Source: Deltaproteobacteria bacterium
GTDB lineage: Bacteria > Desulfobacterota > Binatia > HRBIN30 > CADEER01
Length of the DNA stretch: 64,000 nt
Assembly: GCA_029262455.1 (NCBI GenBank)
Contig: JAJCZJ010000122.1
Span: 1-64,000 of the forward strand
Reading direction: 5' to 3'
Each line of letters begins with the position of its first letter. The first letter of the stretch is position 1. Shown in pieces: positions 4,990 through 12,621 of this stretch. The notes under the pieces are model-generated. The model was not told the origin of the DNA and made no database searches. It saw only the letters and a list, made by a program, of their open reading frames with translations. The translations under genes were made by a program, and so were the position numbers.

Positions 4990-6636
4990 CTACTCCGGCG
5001 GAGGGCAGCCGATCAGCGCATTATTGACCGCCTCGATCAGCTCGCCGATCATCACCACGCCATCACCGTCCGCATCGGCGCCGCGACAATCAGCCAGACT
5101 GCGCCTTCCCAGGGCAATCAGTACGCAGCGGGTCAGCTCTGCTACACGAACTCTGCCATCGCGATTGCAATCCCCGGTACACGGCCCACTCGGCCGGATC
5201 GTCGGCGGCGGCGTCCGCGTCCGCGTGCGCGTCCGCGTCGCTGTGGCGCGCATACGCGTGTGGGTCGCTGTCGGCCGGGGAGTACGAGTACGCGTGGAGG
5301 TCGGCGGTGGCCCTTCGACACGGACCACAATCTCTCGCTTCTCTCCGAGATTCCCGGCCCTGTCACGCAGCCGCGCAGCCACGATCGTATCCCCGGGAGG
5401 AAAACCGTCATTCCTCGTTGTCACTCGGCCGCAGAATTGAACCTCGCTCGCGGGGTCCGCAAAGTCCAAGGCCAGAGACGGCAGTCTGACGCAGGAATCG
5501 ATCGGATCGATTTGTCCCGCCGGGCCATCCAGGTCTTCGTCAAATCGACATCCGAGATCATTCAGGCGCTGCGGTGTCGCGGCATCTCCAGAGAAGGAAA
5601 ACGGAACGGTAGCAGGGACGCCGCTCATCGTTGGATCCGCCTCGAACTGATCACAGATCACCGGATTCCCCTGGCCAAGCGGTCGCGACACGATCATCTG
5701 GAGATCGGGGGACCCTAAATCCTGCACCGAATTCAGACCAACCAACTCGAGAGACGCACCAGCCCGGCCCTCGACCAACAACCAGTTTAGCGTCCCAGAA
5801 GCCATGTAGATCGGTCTGCCTGCGGCATCGAACCCCCTAGGGAGCACAAACTCGAGGTCATCGGGCAACAGGGAGAATGTCGTGATTGTCGGGCCGGACG
5901 GGCACATCGGATCGATTCTCGCGAGACGATACCGCCCATCGCTCAGCGATCCACAGGCGCTGACCAAGACGGTGTAGACGCCCGTCACAGAAGTCGTGAG
6001 GGTGAAATTCTCACCACCACACACGTCGAGGATCGCCTGTCCGCGCGGGTTGAAGGCACGCACCAAATACTCGTCGCCATCGCGTCCGAGATCATTGATC
6101 CTCAGCCGGACCCTAGCGCCAGCAACGCCAGGAAACTGGAAGGAGTCGACTTCGCCCAGCTCGGACAAGCCGACATCGTCCGTGGTCGCCGCACAGCCGA
6201 GGGGCGCCCCACAATTCGCATCGCCGCCCGAAACAATGTCGGCGTTGAGACGATAGGCGCCACTCCCGCCAAGACACGGCGAGACGCGAATGGTGAGCGG
6301 TGCCGCGGGGGTCGGGATTTCAAACACACTCCGACAGGAGTCTTCGTTGATCCCACCACCGGTGATCCTCAGCCGAACCCCATTGAGATTTCCCGAGGTC
6401 GCAGAGACCTGTAGGAAGAGGACCGAACCGGGCCGCTCGGGGATAAAGGTGAAGACATCCTCGCCATTGAGTTGGAGAAAACCGGCTGCCGAGTCACCAC
6501 AGCGAAGCGACCTCTGCGCCTCGGCGGTCTGAGCGACGCCGAAAAAAAACGCGACCACCAGTAGTGACGCTAACCACCGCCTATTGCGGAAAGGACTACC
6601 CCACCCTCGTCGCTCCGTGCAGTCCCTACATGCCAC
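4990..6636 (-). CDS. Secreted PPC-domain protein with Thr/Arg-Pro linker and dockerin-like tail
   Basis: This 548-residue protein has a signal peptide (hydrophobic SLLVVAFFFGVAQTAEAQ, residues about 24-41). At least two beta-rich regions resemble bacterial pre-peptidase C-terminal (PPC) domains, around residues 45-125 and 140-240. A low-complexity linker rich in T-R-T-R-T-P follows near residue 450. The C-terminus (CTGDCNRDGRV... DADGDGVV... NNALIGCP) has two calcium-loop-like dockerin segments. It starts 3 bp after the anti-sigma gene stops, so the two are very likely cotranscribed. The context suggests a surface protein controlled by, or sensed by, the adjacent sigma/anti-sigma pair. No catalytic motif was recognised. 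Confidence 0.75.
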   Translation of the reverse strand: MACRDCTERRGWGSPFRNRRWLASLLVVAFFFGVAQTAEAQRSLRCGDSAAGFLQLNGEDVFTFIPERPGSVLFLQVSATSGNLNGVRLRITGGGINEDSCRSVFEIPTPAAPLTIRVSPCLGGSGAYRLNADIVSGGDANCGAPLGCAATTDDVGLSELGEVDSFQFPGVAGARVRLRINDLGRDGDEYLVRAFNPRGQAILDVCGGENFTLTTSVTGVYTVLVSACGSLSDGRYRLARIDPMCPSGPTITTFSLLPDDLEFVLPRGFDAAGRPIYMASGTLNWLLVEGRAGASLELVGLNSVQDLGSPDLQMIVSRPLGQGNPVICDQFEADPTMSGVPATVPFSFSGDAATPQRLNDLGCRFDEDLDGPAGQIDPIDSCVRLPSLALDFADPASEVQFCGRVTTRNDGFPPGDTIVAARLRDRAGNLGEKREIVVRVEGPPPTSTRTRTPRPTATHTRMRATATRTRTRTRTPPPTIRPSGPCTGDCNRDGRVRVAELTRCVLIALGRRSLADCRGADADGDGVVMIGELIEAVNNALIGCPPPE

Positions 6637-6639
6637 AGC

Positions 6640-7422
6640 TCACTCGAACGCTTCCCTCTCAACCCAGCCGCTCTGCTCCGGCGACAGCATCACTCGGTAC
6701 CAATCGCGGTCTTCTCCCGCAACCCGCACGAGATCGCCGCGTTGGAATTCGCCGAGCACTCCGGCATTGGGGCGAGGCACTTCGCGCACAAAGACGCGAT
6801 TCACCGTGACCCGCATCTCTGAGACCCGTTCGATCGCACGTACACCTGAGTGTTCGTTCAACTGCTGGTTTTGCACACCGACAGCGAGCAGAGCACCAGC
6901 GGCAACCGCTGCTGGCACCAGGACCGGCAAGCGCAGAGAACGATCGAGCGCCTCGCGGACGCGATGCATCCAAGACGCCGCCTCCGGCTCCGCTTTGGCA
7001 AGATCGCGCGCACCATGCTCGATCAGATCCCGCACACGTCCCTGCAATGCAGTCGGTACTGGCTGGTCGACCATGTCCTCAATGCGCAACCGCTTGCGAA
7101 GAAGAGACAGCCCGTAAACGCACGAATCACATCGCGAGAGATGGGTTTCGACCGCCTTCCGTTCTCGATCCGACAAGTCCTGGGTCAGATAGAGGATCAA
7201 ACCCTCTTCGTCCGCGCACCCGGAGCCCGACATTCCACCATCAATGGCTGGGTACGAGCCATGAAAGTCGTGCTGAAGTCGGCCGCTCAGGCTCGAACAA
7301 CGCTCGCAACTATCAAGATGCTCACGTACGGACTGCGCCATTGTTGAATCCAGCTCGTCGTCGATAAAACACGATAGGTCCTCGAAGTCAGGGCAAGGGC
7401 CCAGAGTAGCGCTGATCGACAT
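6640..7422 (-). CDS. Membrane anti-sigma factor: two zinc-finger motifs, TM helix, SH3-like domain
   Basis: This 260-residue protein has two zinc-binding anti-sigma (ZAS) motifs of the H-x3-C-x2-C type: His35/Cys39/Cys42 and His94/Cys98/Cys101. A single membrane helix follows at about residues 165-183 (LPVLVPAAVAAGALLAVGV). The C-terminal region (about 205-258) resembles a bacterial SH3 domain (VFVREVPRPNAGVL... VRVAGEDRDWYRV). The layout predicts a cytoplasmic sigma-binding part and a periplasmic sensor that could bind cell wall. It begins 21 bp after the stop of the sigma factor gene, the classical sigma/anti-sigma arrangement. Doubling of the ZAS motif in one chain is unusual. Confidence 0.82.
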   Translation of the reverse strand: MSISATLGPCPDFEDLSCFIDDELDSTMAQSVREHLDSCERCSSLSGRLQHDFHGSYPAIDGGMSGSGCADEEGLILYLTQDLSDRERKAVETHLSRCDSCVYGLSLLRKRLRIEDMVDQPVPTALQGRVRDLIEHGARDLAKAEPEAASWMHRVREALDRSLRLPVLVPAAVAAGALLAVGVQNQQLNEHSGVRAIERVSEMRVTVNRVFVREVPRPNAGVLGEFQRGDLVRVAGEDRDWYRVMLSPEQSGWVEREAFE

Positions 7423-7443
7423 GGTCGTCCTCCTAAAAGTTAC

Positions 7444-8412
7444 CTACGAGCGTACTTCGATCGAACCGCGTGAGTCCGCGGAGGGCCGGTTGTCACTCGC
7501 ATTGCTCACCTTCGTCATCAGATCCCGCCGCAAGCGCGCGATCTGCGATCCAATGTTGCCGATGCTGGTGTTGAGCAGGCCTGCAATATCCTTATAGGGA
7601 GCTGTCACTTTGCGGCGCTGTGCTTGCGCCAGCAGCTTGGTTCGCTGGGTTCGCCGTCGCTCGATCTTGCGCTCGAGCTGTGCTCGCTCCTCACGCAAAC
7701 GCTCGGCGGCACCGTTGGTCGGCGGTAGCGCGGCTAGATCTTCGTTGATCCGCTGAATCCGACGTTCGTACAGGTGAACCCAAGCCTGCACCGCGTCGAG
7801 CGCGTCCTCCATCTTCTTTAGACCCGCTTCGCGCTCGCGGACTGTCGCCCGCAAACCTTCAATTCGGTCCAGAACCTCTGGAATCGCATTGCCAGACACC
7901 TGCGACAGGTAACGCACCTCTGACGGGTCGAACTCATGGTCCTCTACATACAACAACTTCATGACCACCGCCTTTGGCGTCGAGAGATCCGAAAGCAGCT
8001 CACGCATCGTTGATCGATCCACATCCATAACGCTAAATTCACCTTCCTGTTCGGCGCGGTCAGTCAGGGCCGGGTCGGCCAGCTCACCGATGCTCTCCAA
8101 GGAGATCGTCTCGATCTCGCGCACGCCGCGCTTCCACTCCAGCACGAGATCGTCGAGCACGAATCCGAGAAGATAAGCCCGAAATGGAGCCCTCCCCTCG
8201 AAAGTCCGCACACGCCGGAAGATCCGGCCCCGGTCGAAGGCAAATACATAAAAATCTCCGGCCTCGTCGGGGGGCACCCGATAGACCCGAATGGGATAAC
8301 CGTAAATTAGCTCGCCGTAGCGATCCTGGAATGTCTTTGCGGCTTCCACATCCCCGGCTACACACCGGCGAATGAGGCTCCGCGCTTCCTCTGCCTCGCT
8401 CAGCGACTCCAC
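7444..8412 (-). CDS. ECF-like RNA polymerase sigma factor with long coiled-coil insertion
   Basis: This 322-residue protein has an N-terminal sigma-2-like helix region (SLIRRCVAGDVEAAKTFQDRYGELIYGY, through FRAYLLGFVLDDLVLEWKRG, about residues 8-115). A C-terminal helix-turn-helix like sigma region 4 follows (APYKDIAGLLNTSIGNIGSQIARLRRDL, about 270-300). About 90 residues of heptad-like charged sequence lie between them (REREAGLKKMEDALDAV... LERKIERRRTQRTKLLAQ), predicting a coiled coil. Typical ECF sigma factors are near 190 residues, so the excess is this insertion. It heads the operon with the anti-sigma gene and is divergent from a caspase gene. Assignment rests on the ends and the neighbour. 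Confidence 0.75.
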   Translation of the reverse strand: MESLSEAEEARSLIRRCVAGDVEAAKTFQDRYGELIYGYPIRVYRVPPDEAGDFYVFAFDRGRIFRRVRTFEGRAPFRAYLLGFVLDDLVLEWKRGVREIETISLESIGELADPALTDRAEQEGEFSVMDVDRSTMRELLSDLSTPKAVVMKLLYVEDHEFDPSEVRYLSQVSGNAIPEVLDRIEGLRATVREREAGLKKMEDALDAVQAWVHLYERRIQRINEDLAALPPTNGAAERLREERAQLERKIERRRTQRTKLLAQAQRRKVTAPYKDIAGLLNTSIGNIGSQIARLRRDLMTKVSNASDNRPSADSRGSIEVRS

Positions 8413-8630
8413 GGTCCCTTCCCGCCCGGAATCCTGCCCGCATGCAAAATCGCGCAGTCATCACGTTCACACCTGTAAGATGGTTTCAGCAAAACCTTTA
8501 TTGCACTGATCGCCGATTTTTTTCCACAAAATCCTTCTGGGAAGATTTTGCAGCAAATTCAACAGGAAACACTGTTATAGTGCGAGTCGATTCTTCATCG
8601 TTGATCCGCTAGACCTTTCGCGGTTAGGAA
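8413..8630. promoter_or_regulatory. Divergent promoter region between sigma factor and caspase genes
   Basis: A 218-bp spacer that is clearly AT-richer than its surroundings (about 8490-8600), with a TATAGT -10-like hexamer at 8576-8581 facing the caspase gene. No matching -35 box at normal spacing is evident; TTGCAG at 8548-8553 is 22 bp away. The sigma factor may read this region itself, but the sequence does not prove that. Confidence 0.4.
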
Positions 8631-10580
8631 ATGCATCGAGTCATGACATTGGGAACACGACTTTCACTGGCGGCGGCTTGCCTGGCTGGCAGTGCGCTCA
8701 TCACGTGGGCGATCTACGAGCCGCACGGTCTCAGCGACCGGGCGACCGACTACATTGAATATGAGCGCGTCGAGCGCCCGGCTCCGGGTGCGAAGTCTAC
8801 CTTATGGCTGCTCTCCGTGGGAGTCAGCCGCTATCAGGACACCTCACTGTCCCTCGAATTCGCCGACGACGACGCCAAGGAAATCGCCGAGTCGCTGCGC
8901 GAAGCTGCCCACGGCGGGCGCTACAGCGCCATTCAAAGCTTGGTCCTGACCGACGAAAAGGTCACCCGCGCGACGCTGCTCGACGGTTTGGCCAATTTCC
9001 TCGGATCCGCCGGTCCGGACGATGTCGCCATGATCTTCTTCGCCGGCCATGGCGTGCGCGATCTAAATAGCGGCAGCTACTACTTCCTGCCCCACCCCGC
9101 GACATCCGACAACCTTCTGACTGAGGGCTTGAGGATGACCGACTTCGACGAGATGTTGCGGGTCATCCGGCGCAACGTACGCGCCGTCGTCGTCATGCTC
9201 GACACCTGTCATGCGGGTTCACTCGGTGTGACCTCGCCACAAGTGGTCTCGGCCGACGAAATCGCAGGGCAAATGTCGGCCGGCGAAGGCTTCTTTCTGC
9301 TGGCAGCGTCGCGTCCTGGCGAAGAATCGAAAGAAGATCGTGAGATCGGGCACGGCGCCTTCACGTTCTCCATTCTCGAAGCCCTCGACGGTCGCGCCGA
9401 CGGCGATCAAGACGGCGCATTGTCGGTATCCGAACTATTCGGCTACGTCGCGAAACGCGTTCCCAGCCTGACCGGCGGTAAGCAGCACCCATACAGCAAG
9501 ACCGAGGGCACCGATTTGATTCTGGTGTCGACCCAGACCTCCGAGAAAGTTCGCAACACTCGGATCGCAGCCAAACCAGAGACGGAGCGAGCCGAAACCA
9601 CTCCCGCCGCACCAAATGCCAAGGCGCTGAACTCCATCGCCGTACTCGAGTTCGACAACCTCCGCGCCAATCGCGACTTCGACTGGATCAGCAAGGCGTT
9701 GCGGGTCGCCTTCGACACAGAGCTCAGCAAAGTCACCGCGCTGCGGGTGTTTTCCCCCGAGCTAATCGACCACACCTCGCGTGTTCGCGGCGCCGACTCA
9801 TTGTACACCGCACGCGAGCTCGGCGTGTCCCGGCTCGTCGCCGGGGCCTTTCACGTCACCGGCGACACCTTGCGGATCGACGCACGTATCATCGACGCCA
9901 ACAGCGGCGTCAACGAAGCCTCGGACAGCGTCGAAGGGGAGCTCGATGACTTCTTCGCTCTGCAAAAGCAGCTGGTTCTCAGCATGTTGCGCCGACTGAG
10001 GGTTCAGATTTTACCGGCCGAGGGCGCATCGATTCAGACCGAAACCAACACCGACGTCGATGCCTACCGGCTCCTGCTCGAATCCGAAGGCCTTCTGCGC
10101 GACTCCGAAGAAGCGAACGCCGATCCGGGTCCCCAATCCGGAGTGGAAGCCTGGCACGGCCTACTCGACCTCTTCGTCGGCCGAGCTTACGGCGACGAGA
10201 TCCCCGCAACAGAGTCTCCGGTCGTTCGGACTCCCGACGTCGACACGCTCACGCAAGAGATTGCCGACTTTCTCGAGACATTGCGCACTTCGATCGAAGC
10301 AAAAGATATCGATCGCGTGGCCGAACAATACATCAAGTTCTCAGACCGCCAACGCAAAGCACTCCAGTCCTACATGGAGGCGGCAAATAACCTAAAGGTT
10401 ACGTTTAGCGACATTGCGGTCGAAGAGGAGGCATCGGATCTCGTCGTCTCCTTTACCCGGCGAGACCAGTTCGACGACCACAAGACCGATCGTGAGGTGC
10501 GACTCGAGGTGCGCATCTCAAAGGTCCTCGTCCGCCTGGACGGCGCCATCCAGATCGGCCCAAAGTCCCCACCGCGCTGA
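8631..10580 (+). CDS. Membrane-anchored caspase-family (peptidase C14) protein with FlgO/TolB-N-like domain
   Basis: This 649-residue protein has an N-terminal membrane helix or signal anchor (LAAACLAGSALITWAIY) and then a caspase-fold domain (about residues 55-290). The catalytic dyad is visible: His140 in FFAGHGV and Cys193 in LDTCHAG. A second domain (about 335-460: SIAVLEFDNLRANRDFDWISKALRVAF... VSRLVAGAFHVTGDTLRIDARIID) looks like the FlgO/TolB-N-type fold common next to bacterial adenylyl cyclases and TPR proteins. The last 190 residues are charged and unassigned. The gene is divergent from the sigma/anti-sigma operon. It is expected to be a surface-facing cysteine protease of clan CD, cleaving after basic residues if it follows orthocaspases (inference). 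Confidence 0.85.
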   Translation: MHRVMTLGTRLSLAAACLAGSALITWAIYEPHGLSDRATDYIEYERVERPAPGAKSTLWLLSVGVSRYQDTSLSLEFADDDAKEIAESLREAAHGGRYSAIQSLVLTDEKVTRATLLDGLANFLGSAGPDDVAMIFFAGHGVRDLNSGSYYFLPHPATSDNLLTEGLRMTDFDEMLRVIRRNVRAVVVMLDTCHAGSLGVTSPQVVSADEIAGQMSAGEGFFLLAASRPGEESKEDREIGHGAFTFSILEALDGRADGDQDGALSVSELFGYVAKRVPSLTGGKQHPYSKTEGTDLILVSTQTSEKVRNTRIAAKPETERAETTPAAPNAKALNSIAVLEFDNLRANRDFDWISKALRVAFDTELSKVTALRVFSPELIDHTSRVRGADSLYTARELGVSRLVAGAFHVTGDTLRIDARIIDANSGVNEASDSVEGELDDFFALQKQLVLSMLRRLRVQILPAEGASIQTETNTDVDAYRLLLESEGLLRDSEEANADPGPQSGVEAWHGLLDLFVGRAYGDEIPATESPVVRTPDVDTLTQEIADFLETLRTSIEAKDIDRVAEQYIKFSDRQRKALQSYMEAANNLKVTFSDIAVEEEASDLVVSFTRRDQFDDHKTDREVRLEVRISKVLVRLDGAIQIGPKSPPR

Positions 10581-10775
10581 GAAAAAGCGCGACATGGATC
10601 TCCGCACATCATTCAACACGCAAACAAATCGCCTGCAAATCGCCTCACGCGACAGCAGCAATCGATCGAAAGCTGTGGAATCAGCGGCGCCTGGAAGCGA
10701 TCGCAGCGAAAGCAAAACCGCCACTTTCGCTACAGACCACTATTCTTCCGGTCGCCTCTCAGCCTAAACTAAGGC

Positions 10776-12077
10776 GTGGTCTCGGCGAAAGGCAAGATTT
10801 CGACCGAACAGCGCCAGAGACAATCTGGGCGCGGCTGGCGCCCACGTTCGGCGATCGGCTTGTTCGTTCTGACAACAGTGGTGGGCGCTGCCGCAGCGGC
10901 TCGGGCCGAAGACCTCAGCCGGGTCATCCCGAATCTGTTCGGCGGCTCGCTCGGGACCACCACCTTCCTCGACGGTGTATCGAGCGCAACCCAAGAACCC
11001 GCTCTCGCCCGTCGGTTCCGCGCATTGCCGGCCACCTTGGCCGCTGCCAGGTCGCAGGCTCCCATCCCCTCGGCGACCGGGGCCTTCCGTTTCGGGTGGG
11101 ACCCGGACCTCGACACCTTCGTACGCTCAGAACAAAGCCTCGGCCCGGCGCTCGCCGAACGCGCAACCACGCTGGGTAAAGGCGTACTGACGATCGGTTT
11201 CTCCTATACGCACAGTGACTTCGACACCCTCGAGGGCGACGACCTGTCATCGATCCGGACCCGCCAACCAGCTCTCGAGGCAGAGTTTCTCACGATGCTG
11301 ACGCCAGGCGATCAGGTCCTATTCGGCGACGACCTACTCGAGACGTCGCTGGCAATGTCCTTCCGATTGGATCTCTTCTACCTCAGTGCAGCCTACGGAA
11401 TCACCGACGACATCGATCTGTCGGTCGCCCTCGCACTCAACCGAATCCGAATGCGCGGCCGCGCCATGGCGCAAATTCTCGACCCGCTCGGCAACGGCTC
11501 GACCCAATTCGGAGCCGACCAACAAGGCGTCCTCGGTAACGGCAACGGGCCGATCTGCAGTCTCAGATTCCGCTGCGTCGAAGACTCGTTCGACGAATCA
11601 GCCACCGGCACAGGGGATATCTATCTGCGCGGCAAATGGAACTTCGCGAAGACAGAATGGGGCGACCTCGCGGCCGCCGCGGTCCTGACTGTGCCGACGG
11701 GCAACGCCGACGACTTATTGGGTTTCAGGGACCCGACATTTACACCGTCGATTATCGCGTCAAGGACTCTAGGGCCGATCTCGCCACACCTGAATCTCGC
11801 ATACGCACTGCGCAGCGGGCGCGACGTCAGTCAGTTCCAGTGGATCATCGGGGCCGACGCGCGCGCCACCGAATGGTTGACCGTCGGGGCTGACTTCCTC
11901 GGGTACCACGACGACAAGCGCGATGGCAGCAACGACGACGTGCTGCAATCGGCCGTCGGCTTCAAGGTGAATCCGTTTGCCCAGTTCGTTCTCGGAGCGA
12001 GCTTACAGTTCCCCCTGAATCGGGACGGATTGCGCGCCGATATCGTCTATTCAGGCCAGATCGAATACACATTCTGA
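10776..12077 (+). CDS. Outer-membrane beta-barrel, phenol_MetA_deg/transporter-like
   Basis: This 433-residue protein has a signal peptide (AIGLFVLTTVVGAAAAARAE). Alternating amphipathic strands (LTIGFSYTHSDFD, LSVALALNRIRM, IYLRGKWNFAKTE, AAAAVLTVPTG) lead to a C-terminal IEYTF that fits the BAM recognition signal. The pattern matches the 'putative MetA-pathway of phenol degradation' family of outer-membrane channels. The start is GTG at 10776. It lies about 195 bp after the caspase gene on the same strand; that gap shows no recognisable gene. The substrate is unknown. Confidence 0.75.
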   Translation: MVSAKGKISTEQRQRQSGRGWRPRSAIGLFVLTTVVGAAAAARAEDLSRVIPNLFGGSLGTTTFLDGVSSATQEPALARRFRALPATLAAARSQAPIPSATGAFRFGWDPDLDTFVRSEQSLGPALAERATTLGKGVLTIGFSYTHSDFDTLEGDDLSSIRTRQPALEAEFLTMLTPGDQVLFGDDLLETSLAMSFRLDLFYLSAAYGITDDIDLSVALALNRIRMRGRAMAQILDPLGNGSTQFGADQQGVLGNGNGPICSLRFRCVEDSFDESATGTGDIYLRGKWNFAKTEWGDLAAAAVLTVPTGNADDLLGFRDPTFTPSIIASRTLGPISPHLNLAYALRSGRDVSQFQWIIGADARATEWLTVGADFLGYHDDKRDGSNDDVLQSAVGFKVNPFAQFVLGASLQFPLNRDGLRADIVYSGQIEYTF

Positions 12078-12210
12078 CGATCTGTCGTAGGATCACCCGT
12101 CGGCGGCTGCGAGATATCGAGTTTCCCGCGCTAGCAGGTAGTGCTAGGCTGAGGAGGTTCGATGGATCTCCGCACGCCGTACACACTCGATGCCCGAGAG
12201 GAGGACAAAC

Positions 12211-12621
12211 ATGCTGAAATCATGCTTCAACGTCGGACTGTTCGTCCTGCTGCTCACCAATGCCGCCCACGCAGGACCCGAGTGGAAACCACAAGACTGG
12301 GAAGAGATTCCAACCCTACAGTTCCAGACCATCAACCCCGACCAAGAGGAGCATTGGTCCACCGTTTGGTTCGTTTTCCTAGACGGCGACATTTACCTCC
12401 GGCTCGGCACGACCGCCGCCGACTACGTCGACTCAAACATCAAACGCCCCTACGTCAAAGTGCGTATACGCGGGATGGTATTCCGTGACGTCCGCGCCGA
12501 CCCGGCCAACAGCATGGCGGTCCGTGTCGCCGACGCCATGGCCGAGAAGTACCCAACCGATTTCTTGATCCGCTACATGCCGCACCCGCTCACCGTACGA
12601 CTCCGGGCCGCCTCGTTCTGA
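12211..12621 (+). CDS. Small secreted protein, DUF2255/split-barrel-like
   Basis: This 136-residue protein starts at ATG 12211, supported by a strong GAGGAGG 7-8 bp upstream; an in-frame ATG 21 bp earlier lacks one. The signal peptide is MLKSCFNVGLFVLLLTNAAHAG. The mature part (VWFVFLDGDIYLRLG... YVKVRIRGMVFRDVRA... ADAMAEKYPTDFL... LTVRL) follows the pattern of split beta-barrel (PNPOx-like/DUF2255) proteins, which are normally cytoplasmic. No catalytic function can be assigned. Confidence 0.65.
   Translation: MLKSCFNVGLFVLLLTNAAHAGPEWKPQDWEEIPTLQFQTINPDQEEHWSTVWFVFLDGDIYLRLGTTAADYVDSNIKRPYVKVRIRGMVFRDVRADPANSMAVRVADAMAEKYPTDFLIRYMPHPLTVRLRAASF

Follow-up and report, generated by a model that had tools for sequence, protein, structure and literature searches.

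In the type III-E CRISPR system known as CASP or Craspase (Csx29-Csx30-CASP-sigma), a TPR-CHAT protease cuts the inhibitor of a sigma factor, and the authors point, in the part of their paper drawn on here, to positive autoregulation (PMC10028731). The neighbourhoods of EACC2-type caspases include an extracytoplasmic function (ECF) sigma factor, according to the sections of two reports used here (PMC8195603, PMC7159879). Likewise, the portion of a 2012 survey considered here counts 46 prokaryotic metacaspases with an N-terminal membrane helix and names sigma factors among operon partners generally (PMC3501461). Here, we describe a five-gene module that pairs a sigma factor with a caspase in a 64,000-nucleotide stretch of DNA (the window; contig JAJCZJ010000122.1) from a Deltaproteobacteria bacterium of the class Binatia. 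The window is part of a 7.34 Mb genome (G000, contig C122), and the five open reading frames (ORFs) were found exactly where an earlier annotation made without database searches, the sequence-only reading, had placed them. Three genes lie on the minus strand and encode a secreted dockerin-type protein (4990..6636), an anti-sigma factor (6640..7422), and an ECF-type sigma factor (7444..8412). Divergently, on the plus strand, lie the genes of a caspase-TolB-N-like-NTF2-like protein (8631..10580) and of a predicted outer-membrane barrel (10776..12077).

We give even chances to the proposal that, at this locus, an envelope receptor feeds a self-amplifying sigma switch that spans the membrane and is triggered by a protease. 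At rest, the zinc-finger anti-sigma factor would hold the sigma factor at the inner membrane. The caspase would be anchored by its N-terminal helix, such that its caspase domain and its TolB-N/NTF2 tail share the periplasm with the stalk of the anti-sigma factor. The tail and the adjacent barrel would sense an envelope event and activate the caspase, which would cut the anti-sigma factor after Arg195, between the membrane helix and the SH3 domain. Further processing would then free the sigma factor, which would drive its own operon (sigma factor, anti-sigma factor, and secreted dockerin-type protein) from a GCAATAAA-N13-SCATC promoter. The sequence-only reading had also suggested an envelope-sensing switch, one in which the sigma factor controls the protease. 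The switch itself is plausible, while its direction found no support and is probably the reverse: the protease would act on the anti-sigma factor, a view favoured by the predicted compartment, the putative pocket residues, and an invariant arginine of the stalk. Most bacterial caspases have no known function. For this one, candidates can be named for the substrate, the bond that is cut, and the read-out promoter, which makes its role directly testable.

The association between this sigma family and caspase-fold peptidases is strong. Matches to the window sigma factor were obtained in 20 of 58 related genomes, four of which (G041, G049, G053, and G055; 21-25 bits) were weak and were dropped as ordinary ECF sigma factors. 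Genes outside the window were called by our own script. Within the order that comprises genomes G000-G014, a caspase built like that of the window is encoded divergently from the sigma gene at 13 loci in 12 of 15 genomes; G005, G010, and G012 lack the locus and G004 has two. The gene order dockerin-type/anti-sigma/sigma - caspase/barrel is maintained across 11 orthologous loci, with exceptions in G001, G014, and G006. A dockerin-type homologue occurs in all 11, though in G006 it is shorter and in G014 it lies on the barrel side, and a barrel occurs in 10. The flanking genes rumA, mthfr, and hflKC matched within family f1 only; conservation of the module thus reaches further than that of its surroundings.

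With a profile built from 17 sigma factors, 20 of 148 Binatia genomes yielded 21 loci; one more came from a Desulfobacteraceae metagenome-assembled genome (MAG; L085) when named genomes were scanned, for a total of 22. A caspase-fold peptidase neighbours the sigma gene in 19 of these: a C14 caspase in 13, a CHAT protein in five (G019, G045, G051, G444/L079, and G494/L083), and both in one. Pfam detects the CHAT domain in four of the six CHAT partners, and the genome search in the other two. The three remaining loci are cut by contig ends: the contig of G445/L081 stops within the anti-sigma gene, that of G497/L082 just past the sigma gene, and that of G018 begins about 1.4 kb before the sigma gene. 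In G018, the truncated upstream gene resembles three CHAT-type partners in their C-terminal repeat region (26-33% identity, best E 5e-32). CHAT and C14 peptidases are few in most of these genomes, with 0-3 CHAT and 0-7 C14 matches each in seven genomes searched, and 0-11 CHAT matches each in twelve others, the value of 11 coming from the fragmented G445. The neighbour of the sigma gene is the sole CHAT or C14 gene at E<=1e-5 in G019 and G045, while the only two C14 genes of G004, which has no CHAT gene, flank its two sigma genes. The functional link first drawn from the order of genes in the window holds up: the pair is adjacent in 12 further loci, and the five genes form a conserved Binatia module and no chance neighbourhood.

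Some of these loci displayed peculiarities of their own. In L085 (9938-15413), outside Binatia, the sigma and anti-sigma genes are followed by a CHAT-membrane helix-TPR protein and then by a C14 caspase with a PEGA domain, so that CHAT and C14 proteases are adjacent. The CHAT partner of G045 is split into two ORFs in L066 (5836-7329, with the CHAT/AAA start, and 7398-9641, with the repeat end) and is a single gene in relatives, through either a frameshift or a true split. Finally, L080, from a public record titled 'MAG: Klebsiella pneumoniae isolate TH-08apr19-175', is a sigma/CHAT locus of Binatia type, and the title looks wrong.

The predicted compartments of protease and anti-sigma factor change together. 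A membrane helix occurs in all 13 C14-type anti-sigma factors (best 19-residue hydropathy 1.73-2.52; residues 165-183 in the window, 6874..6930, minus strand), and an N-terminal one in all 13 C14 caspases (1.68-2.12; residues 11-29, 8661..8717, plus strand). In each of these 13 caspase proteins this helix precedes the caspase domain, with none between caspase and tail. None of seven CHAT-type anti-sigma factors has such a helix (hydropathy at most 1.29; the protease partner of L081 is unseen). Hence, an anti-sigma factor has a membrane helix exactly when its protease has an N-terminal one, a covariation that counts as one event and not many because the sigma tree needs a single C14/CHAT change (97/94 support, with L085 as a long branch). 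With moderate confidence, hydropathy predicts that the caspase domain and the anti-sigma stalk are both periplasmic. The protease, originally suggested to lie on the cell surface, is thus better called periplasmic and anchored in the inner membrane, on hydropathy only.

The protease was confirmed as a caspase of family C14. Its catalytic domain (residues 54-300, 8790..9530) matches PF00656 at 1.6e-16, and a structural model (8 sequences, mean predicted local distance difference test (pLDDT) 67.7) aligns to MALT1 with Z 22.4 and a root-mean-square deviation (rmsd) of 3.1 over 211 aligned residues. The His-Cys dyad of C14 enzymes, H140 (9048-9050) and C193 (9207-9209), is conserved in 13/13 proteins, as is D191 (9201-9203), while D81 (8871-8873) is present in all 8 that were aligned. 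A search of the PDB with the caspase profile returned nothing below 0.01 and only metacaspases near E 1; a single-sequence search returned GSU0716 at 0.06. In those weak alignments (E about 1), D81 falls on the 'CCND' Asp of T. brucei MCA2, which in our reading equals D95 if the 20-residue offset of the chain applies, and D191 on the 'DSCHSG' Asp of metacaspase-1, which we take to be TbMCA2 D211. In the part of a review used here, Asp95 and Asp211 are given as pocket residues of MCA2, and C14B enzymes as cleaving after Arg or Lys (PMC4357240). The caspase may therefore keep the acidic positions of Arg/Lys-cutting metacaspases in a putative C14B-type pocket.

A candidate target for such a pocket is present in the anti-sigma factor. 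This protein matches zf-HC2 in two stretches (2.3e-12), with HxxxCxxC motifs at residues 35 and 94, and SH3_3 (7.8e-8); together with its single hydrophobic helix, these matches bear out its description as a membrane anti-sigma factor with an SH3-like domain. The 'double zinc' that had been emphasized is true of the window protein and is not constant, as two HxxxCxxC motifs occur in 7/13 anti-sigma factors and one in 6/13. That it inhibits the adjacent sigma factor is proposed from gene adjacency. In the stalk that links the membrane helix to the SH3 domain (residues 184-204), Arg195 (6838..6840, minus strand) is the sole position invariant in 13/13 anti-sigma factors; the next invariant residue is V205, on the SH3 side. 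The residue that follows Arg195 is Ala in 8, Ser in 3, Asp in 1, and Gly in 1. Taken with the putative metacaspase-like pocket acids and the Arg/Lys preference of C14B enzymes, this invariant arginine leads us to predict that the caspase cleaves the anti-sigma factor after R195.

The C-terminal region of the caspase protein (9621..10565, plus strand) offers a candidate sensor. Its first domain, previously termed 'FlgO-like', has no Pfam match and is nearer in fold to the N-terminal domain of TolB (E 9e-5). It is followed by an NTF2/CaMKII-hub-like domain (fold E 8e-6) that the sequence-only reading lacked. A profile of this tail matched in 31 of 145 Binatia genomes, and 29 matches were above 200 bits. 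These comprised the 13 module caspases and one further C14 protein (L068), four kinases (three by Pfam, L176 by eye), four cyclases and one cyclase-like protein whose N-terminal part has no Pfam match, four CHAT proteins (two of them cut), one protein cut at a contig edge, and one TIR-like protein (TIR_2 0.0046, below cut-off). Fusions of the tail to kinase, cyclase, CHAT, or TIR-like domains were seen in L159-L164, L166, L069, L070, and L071. All 12 non-caspase tail proteins tested have a hydrophobic helix (1.54-2.52) between effector and tail, and the charge bias agrees in 11/12. From this position of the helix, the effector is predicted to be cytosolic and the tail outside. For 12 of the 16 tail genes beyond the module caspases, a barrel homologue is the neighbour or lies no more than about 5 kb away; the other four, with no barrel seen, are on a short contig or stretch, or at a contig end.

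Two tail genes deserve separate mention. L068 (8122-10107, G000:C31) is a second caspase-tail gene of the window genome, with no match to the module sigma factor nearby. It is a paralogue that retains the catalytic Cys (DTCYSG in the alignment), adjoins a 1314-residue protein that starts with dockerin-like repeats, and lies about 4.5 kb from a barrel gene. L179 (10-1821, G444) is a CHAT-tail fusion with the start of its CHAT domain cut. This domain falls within the sigma-linked CHAT family, with 55-72% identity to the five sigma-linked CHATs of Binatia; identity is 39% for the CHAT of L085 and 33-34% for the two other tail CHATs compared. L179 is a bridge between the CHAT-type sigma loci and the tail module. 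Based on these findings, we tentatively suggest that Binatia possess a modular trans-envelope receptor, formed by barrel and TolB-N/NTF2 tail, with plug-in outputs behind a membrane helix: cytosolic Ser/Thr kinase, class III cyclase, CHAT protease, or a TIR-like domain. With the helix moved to the front, the output would be a periplasmic caspase that acts as first-cut anti-sigma protease in a self-amplifying sigma response. We regard this larger scheme as possible rather than probable.

The same distribution bears on a different explanation of the module, in which caspase and sigma factor belong to parallel pathways: what the caspase matures or degrades would be the barrel or the dockerin-type protein, and shared service to one surface structure would keep the genes together. 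The regularity with which both proteins accompany the orthologous loci fits this idea, as does the predicted periplasmic location of the caspase. However, the barrel also stands near kinase, cyclase, and CHAT tails in loci showing neither caspase nor sigma factor, and is therefore no dedicated caspase substrate, and CHAT-type loci with readable flanks keep sigma factor, anti-sigma factor, and peptidase without any dockerin-type match. We thus consider parallel pathways rather unlikely.

The divergent gap (8413-8630) had been put forward as the place to search for a shared sigma-specific promoter motif, and it does contain a conserved ECF-like motif. This motif, GCAATAAA-N13-CCATC, lies at 8479..8504 on the minus strand, 66 bases upstream of the sigma start codon, and faces the sigma operon. 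In a discovery scan of 13 gaps, the best spaced pair was common to 9/13, against shuffled maxima of 4-6 (six in 3/30 shuffles). In its general form (GCAATAAA-N13-SCATC) and toward the sigma gene, the motif occurs with 0-2 mismatches in 11/11 orthologous loci, each at P<=0.005 (200 shuffles), although these P values and the exact matches are partly circular because the motif was derived from these loci. Toward the caspase, it beats shuffles at P<0.05 in 0/13 loci, the nearest match being that of G006 (3 mismatches, P 0.075). We take its spacing to be that of ECF promoters. Meanwhile, a search for sigma-70 promoters and terminators in 8300-8700 found none. In 7 of 9 genomes searched whole, there is exactly one exact copy of the motif, each in the divergent gap, and the match of the window is the only exact one of its genome; a pattern of such length allows about one per genome, so this uniqueness says little. 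Separately, the divergent gap of G001 (L052, 7575-8260) is some 450 bases longer than those of its sisters and carries GTAC-rich palindromic stretches, as judged by eye, likely through insertion of a repeat.

We also considered a wider regulon. Among 20 one-mismatch copies inspected, 12 fall within called genes (9/12 in G000, 3/7 in G001, 0/1 in G002) and the remaining 8 outside, some of them 59-234 bases upstream of a gene. A control with the reversed pattern gave 0-5 matches per genome, versus 4-13 for the real pattern (locus included). By their gene-internal positions and by this control, most one-mismatch copies look like chance, and a wider regulon was rejected; further copies of the motif may form a small one. 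The sigma factor thus probably reads chiefly its own operon, for which the one-sided motif is good sequence-level evidence. This one-sidedness speaks against the model of the sequence-only reading, in which the sigma system uses its SH3 domain to sense envelope stress on its own and regulates the caspase and barrel genes across the gap. Such a model accords with the divergence of the genes over a single gap and with an SH3 domain placed behind a membrane helix. Nevertheless, toward the caspase no motif match beats shuffles at P<0.05 in any of the 13 loci, and the model leaves the match between the predicted compartments of protease and anti-sigma factor unexplained; we judge it unlikely.

The weakest alternative, which we consider very improbable, is a conflict or cell-death system as proposed for EACC-type caspases, in which the caspase kills upon phage attack or damage and the sigma factor provides feedback: the best NCBIfam match of the caspase is the EACC1-associated caspase (NF047832, 2.4e-25, 89.3 bits versus a cut-off of 140, hence below it), the PADLOC caspase model matches at 3e-15, and the same tail elsewhere bears CHAT and a weak TIR-like domain, but a predicted periplasmic caspase is oddly located for a suicide effector, STAND/DUF1822 was not matched in six proteins scanned (the EACC1 domain itself was not tested), and the shared flanks inside family f1 suggest a stable chromosomal locus.

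Several observations weigh against the proposed protease-triggered switch, alongside the circularity of the motif statistics and the single origin of the compartment change. A phylum-wide search found the sigma factor in 3 of 395 genomes, with no readable partner in the two besides G000. G132, outside the class, has a partial sigma match with an anti-sigma neighbour and no peptidase in the 3.5 kb read; for G123, also outside the class, 2.6 kb was read, and the genome has no CHAT gene (C14 was not searched there). Both were left out of the 22 sigma loci, and neither supports the linkage. The readable downstream side of G018 has no anti-sigma gene, and that contig has no CHAT or caspase match. 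G001 has no barrel beside its caspase. The periplasmic topology is predicted from hydropathy, and the charge bias agrees with it in 10/13 caspases and 9/13 anti-sigma factors, being opposite in L057 and equal in 3 anti-sigma factors. Arg195 stays at a near-fixed distance from the SH3 domain while its distance from the membrane varies, so its role may be structural instead of that of a cleavage site. Lastly, the motif is no better than shuffles in the two diverged C14 loci (G004 copy 2 and G008), the five CHAT loci, and L085, and it could be conserved by shared ancestry for another reason.

The sigma factor displayed matches to both sigma2 and sigma4 types, which upholds its initial identification, though below curated cut-offs. 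Residues 23-298 match TIGR02937 (sigma70-ECF) at 3.8e-8 (33.1 bits versus a cut-off of 42.9), residues 9-103 match the PRK11924 subfamily at 8.6e-4, and Pfam gives only a weak region 4 (Sigma70_r4_2, 9.3e-4 at 272-298). The helix-turn-helix (HTH) of region 4, at profile positions 275-307, matches SigR (1.5e-4) and SigH (3.4e-4). In an AlphaFold model (15 sequences, mean pLDDT 76.5), the sigma2-like part is followed by a small domain of helices, two long helices that form a hairpin, and the HTH that matches region 4. Residues 2-99 of the model align to the sigmaE chain 1or7_B (rank 33, rmsd 3.5, 93 residues) with Z 9.5, which falls under the caution level because Z below about 13 is frequent among helical models; the rows of the VIA structure list were largely meaningless coiled-coil matches. 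A Foldseek search with the model found nothing under E 0.1, and its best hit (E 0.13) was to an ECF sigma factor. The coiled coil seen in the initial reading is predicted as helices 177-228 and 234-266 (7615..7884, minus strand); this stretch is present in 17/17 aligned sigma factors, its fold being predicted for that of the window alone. As this hairpin of roughly 90 residues separates sigma2 from sigma4 in place of a short linker, we regard the protein as a divergent ECF-type sigma factor and not a standard ECF member. An internal duplication of the HTH received no support (hhalign of residues 134-205 versus 255-308, probability 0.4%).

The third gene of the sigma operon, the secreted dockerin-type protein, is its proposed output. 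It combines PPC-like domains, a T/R-rich linker, and, at its C-terminus, dockerin/EF-hand-like repeats (about 5002-5187, minus strand). The DGDG-type repeats are legible, in line with the PPC/dockerin-like label first given to it, while Pfam matches are weak (PPC 0.027, EF-hand 0.1). For the neighbour of the caspase, labelled a beta-barrel, Pfam offers nothing up to E 1; its hydrophobic N-terminus and the aromatic residue that ends 21/22 homologues fit an outer-membrane protein without proving it. Downstream of the module (12190-12621), the window encodes a small secreted protein with weak likeness to DUF2255 (0.004, below cut-off). Such a gene also comes after the module in G002, G003, and G004, and was not found in the loci of the other families.

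Compared with known systems, the module resembles the regulated intramembrane proteolysis of RseA by DegS in having a single-pass anti-sigma factor with a periplasmic domain and a membrane-anchored periplasmic protease as proposed first cutter. DegS is a PDZ serine protease, whereas the protease here is a caspase. A search of open-access papers found no caspase acting on a membrane anti-sigma factor, nor work on caspases of Binatota. The nearest precedents are CASP/Craspase and the EACC2 caspase neighbourhoods with ECF sigma factors. As in EACC1/EACC2 systems, whose model is the nearest in NCBIfam, a caspase occurs with variable partners; unlike them, the fixed parts here are the periplasmic TolB-N/NTF2 tail and the barrel, and the score is below the model cut-off. 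Prokaryotic metacaspases with a membrane helix share the N-terminal helix architecture, and the portion of the survey considered here describes no dedicated sigma/anti-sigma pair or TolB-N/NTF2 tail (PMC3501461).

If our proposal is true, the control of sigma factors by caspase-fold proteases is not confined to CRISPR, and within one sigma family a clan CD protease has replaced another while the anti-sigma factor switched compartment. The tail-plus-barrel unit would be a type of receptor that ties the state of the outer membrane to effector domains known above all from pathways of immunity and death. Like CASP/Craspase, the module encodes a caspase-fold protease beside an ECF-like sigma factor and a putative inhibitor. 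That system is RNA-guided and its inhibitor is Csx30, whereas here we find a predicted periplasmic C14 caspase and a zf-HC2/SH3 membrane anti-sigma factor. The window protease also differs from the TPR-CHAT protease Csx29, being a C14 enzyme with a TolB-N/NTF2 tail; CHAT occurs in its relatives only. The closer analogues of CASP/Craspase are these CHAT relatives of the sigma family, in which a predicted cytosolic CHAT is joined to TPR or AAA+TPR. By analogy, we propose that the module of the window may represent a membrane counterpart of the CRISPR Craspase logic.

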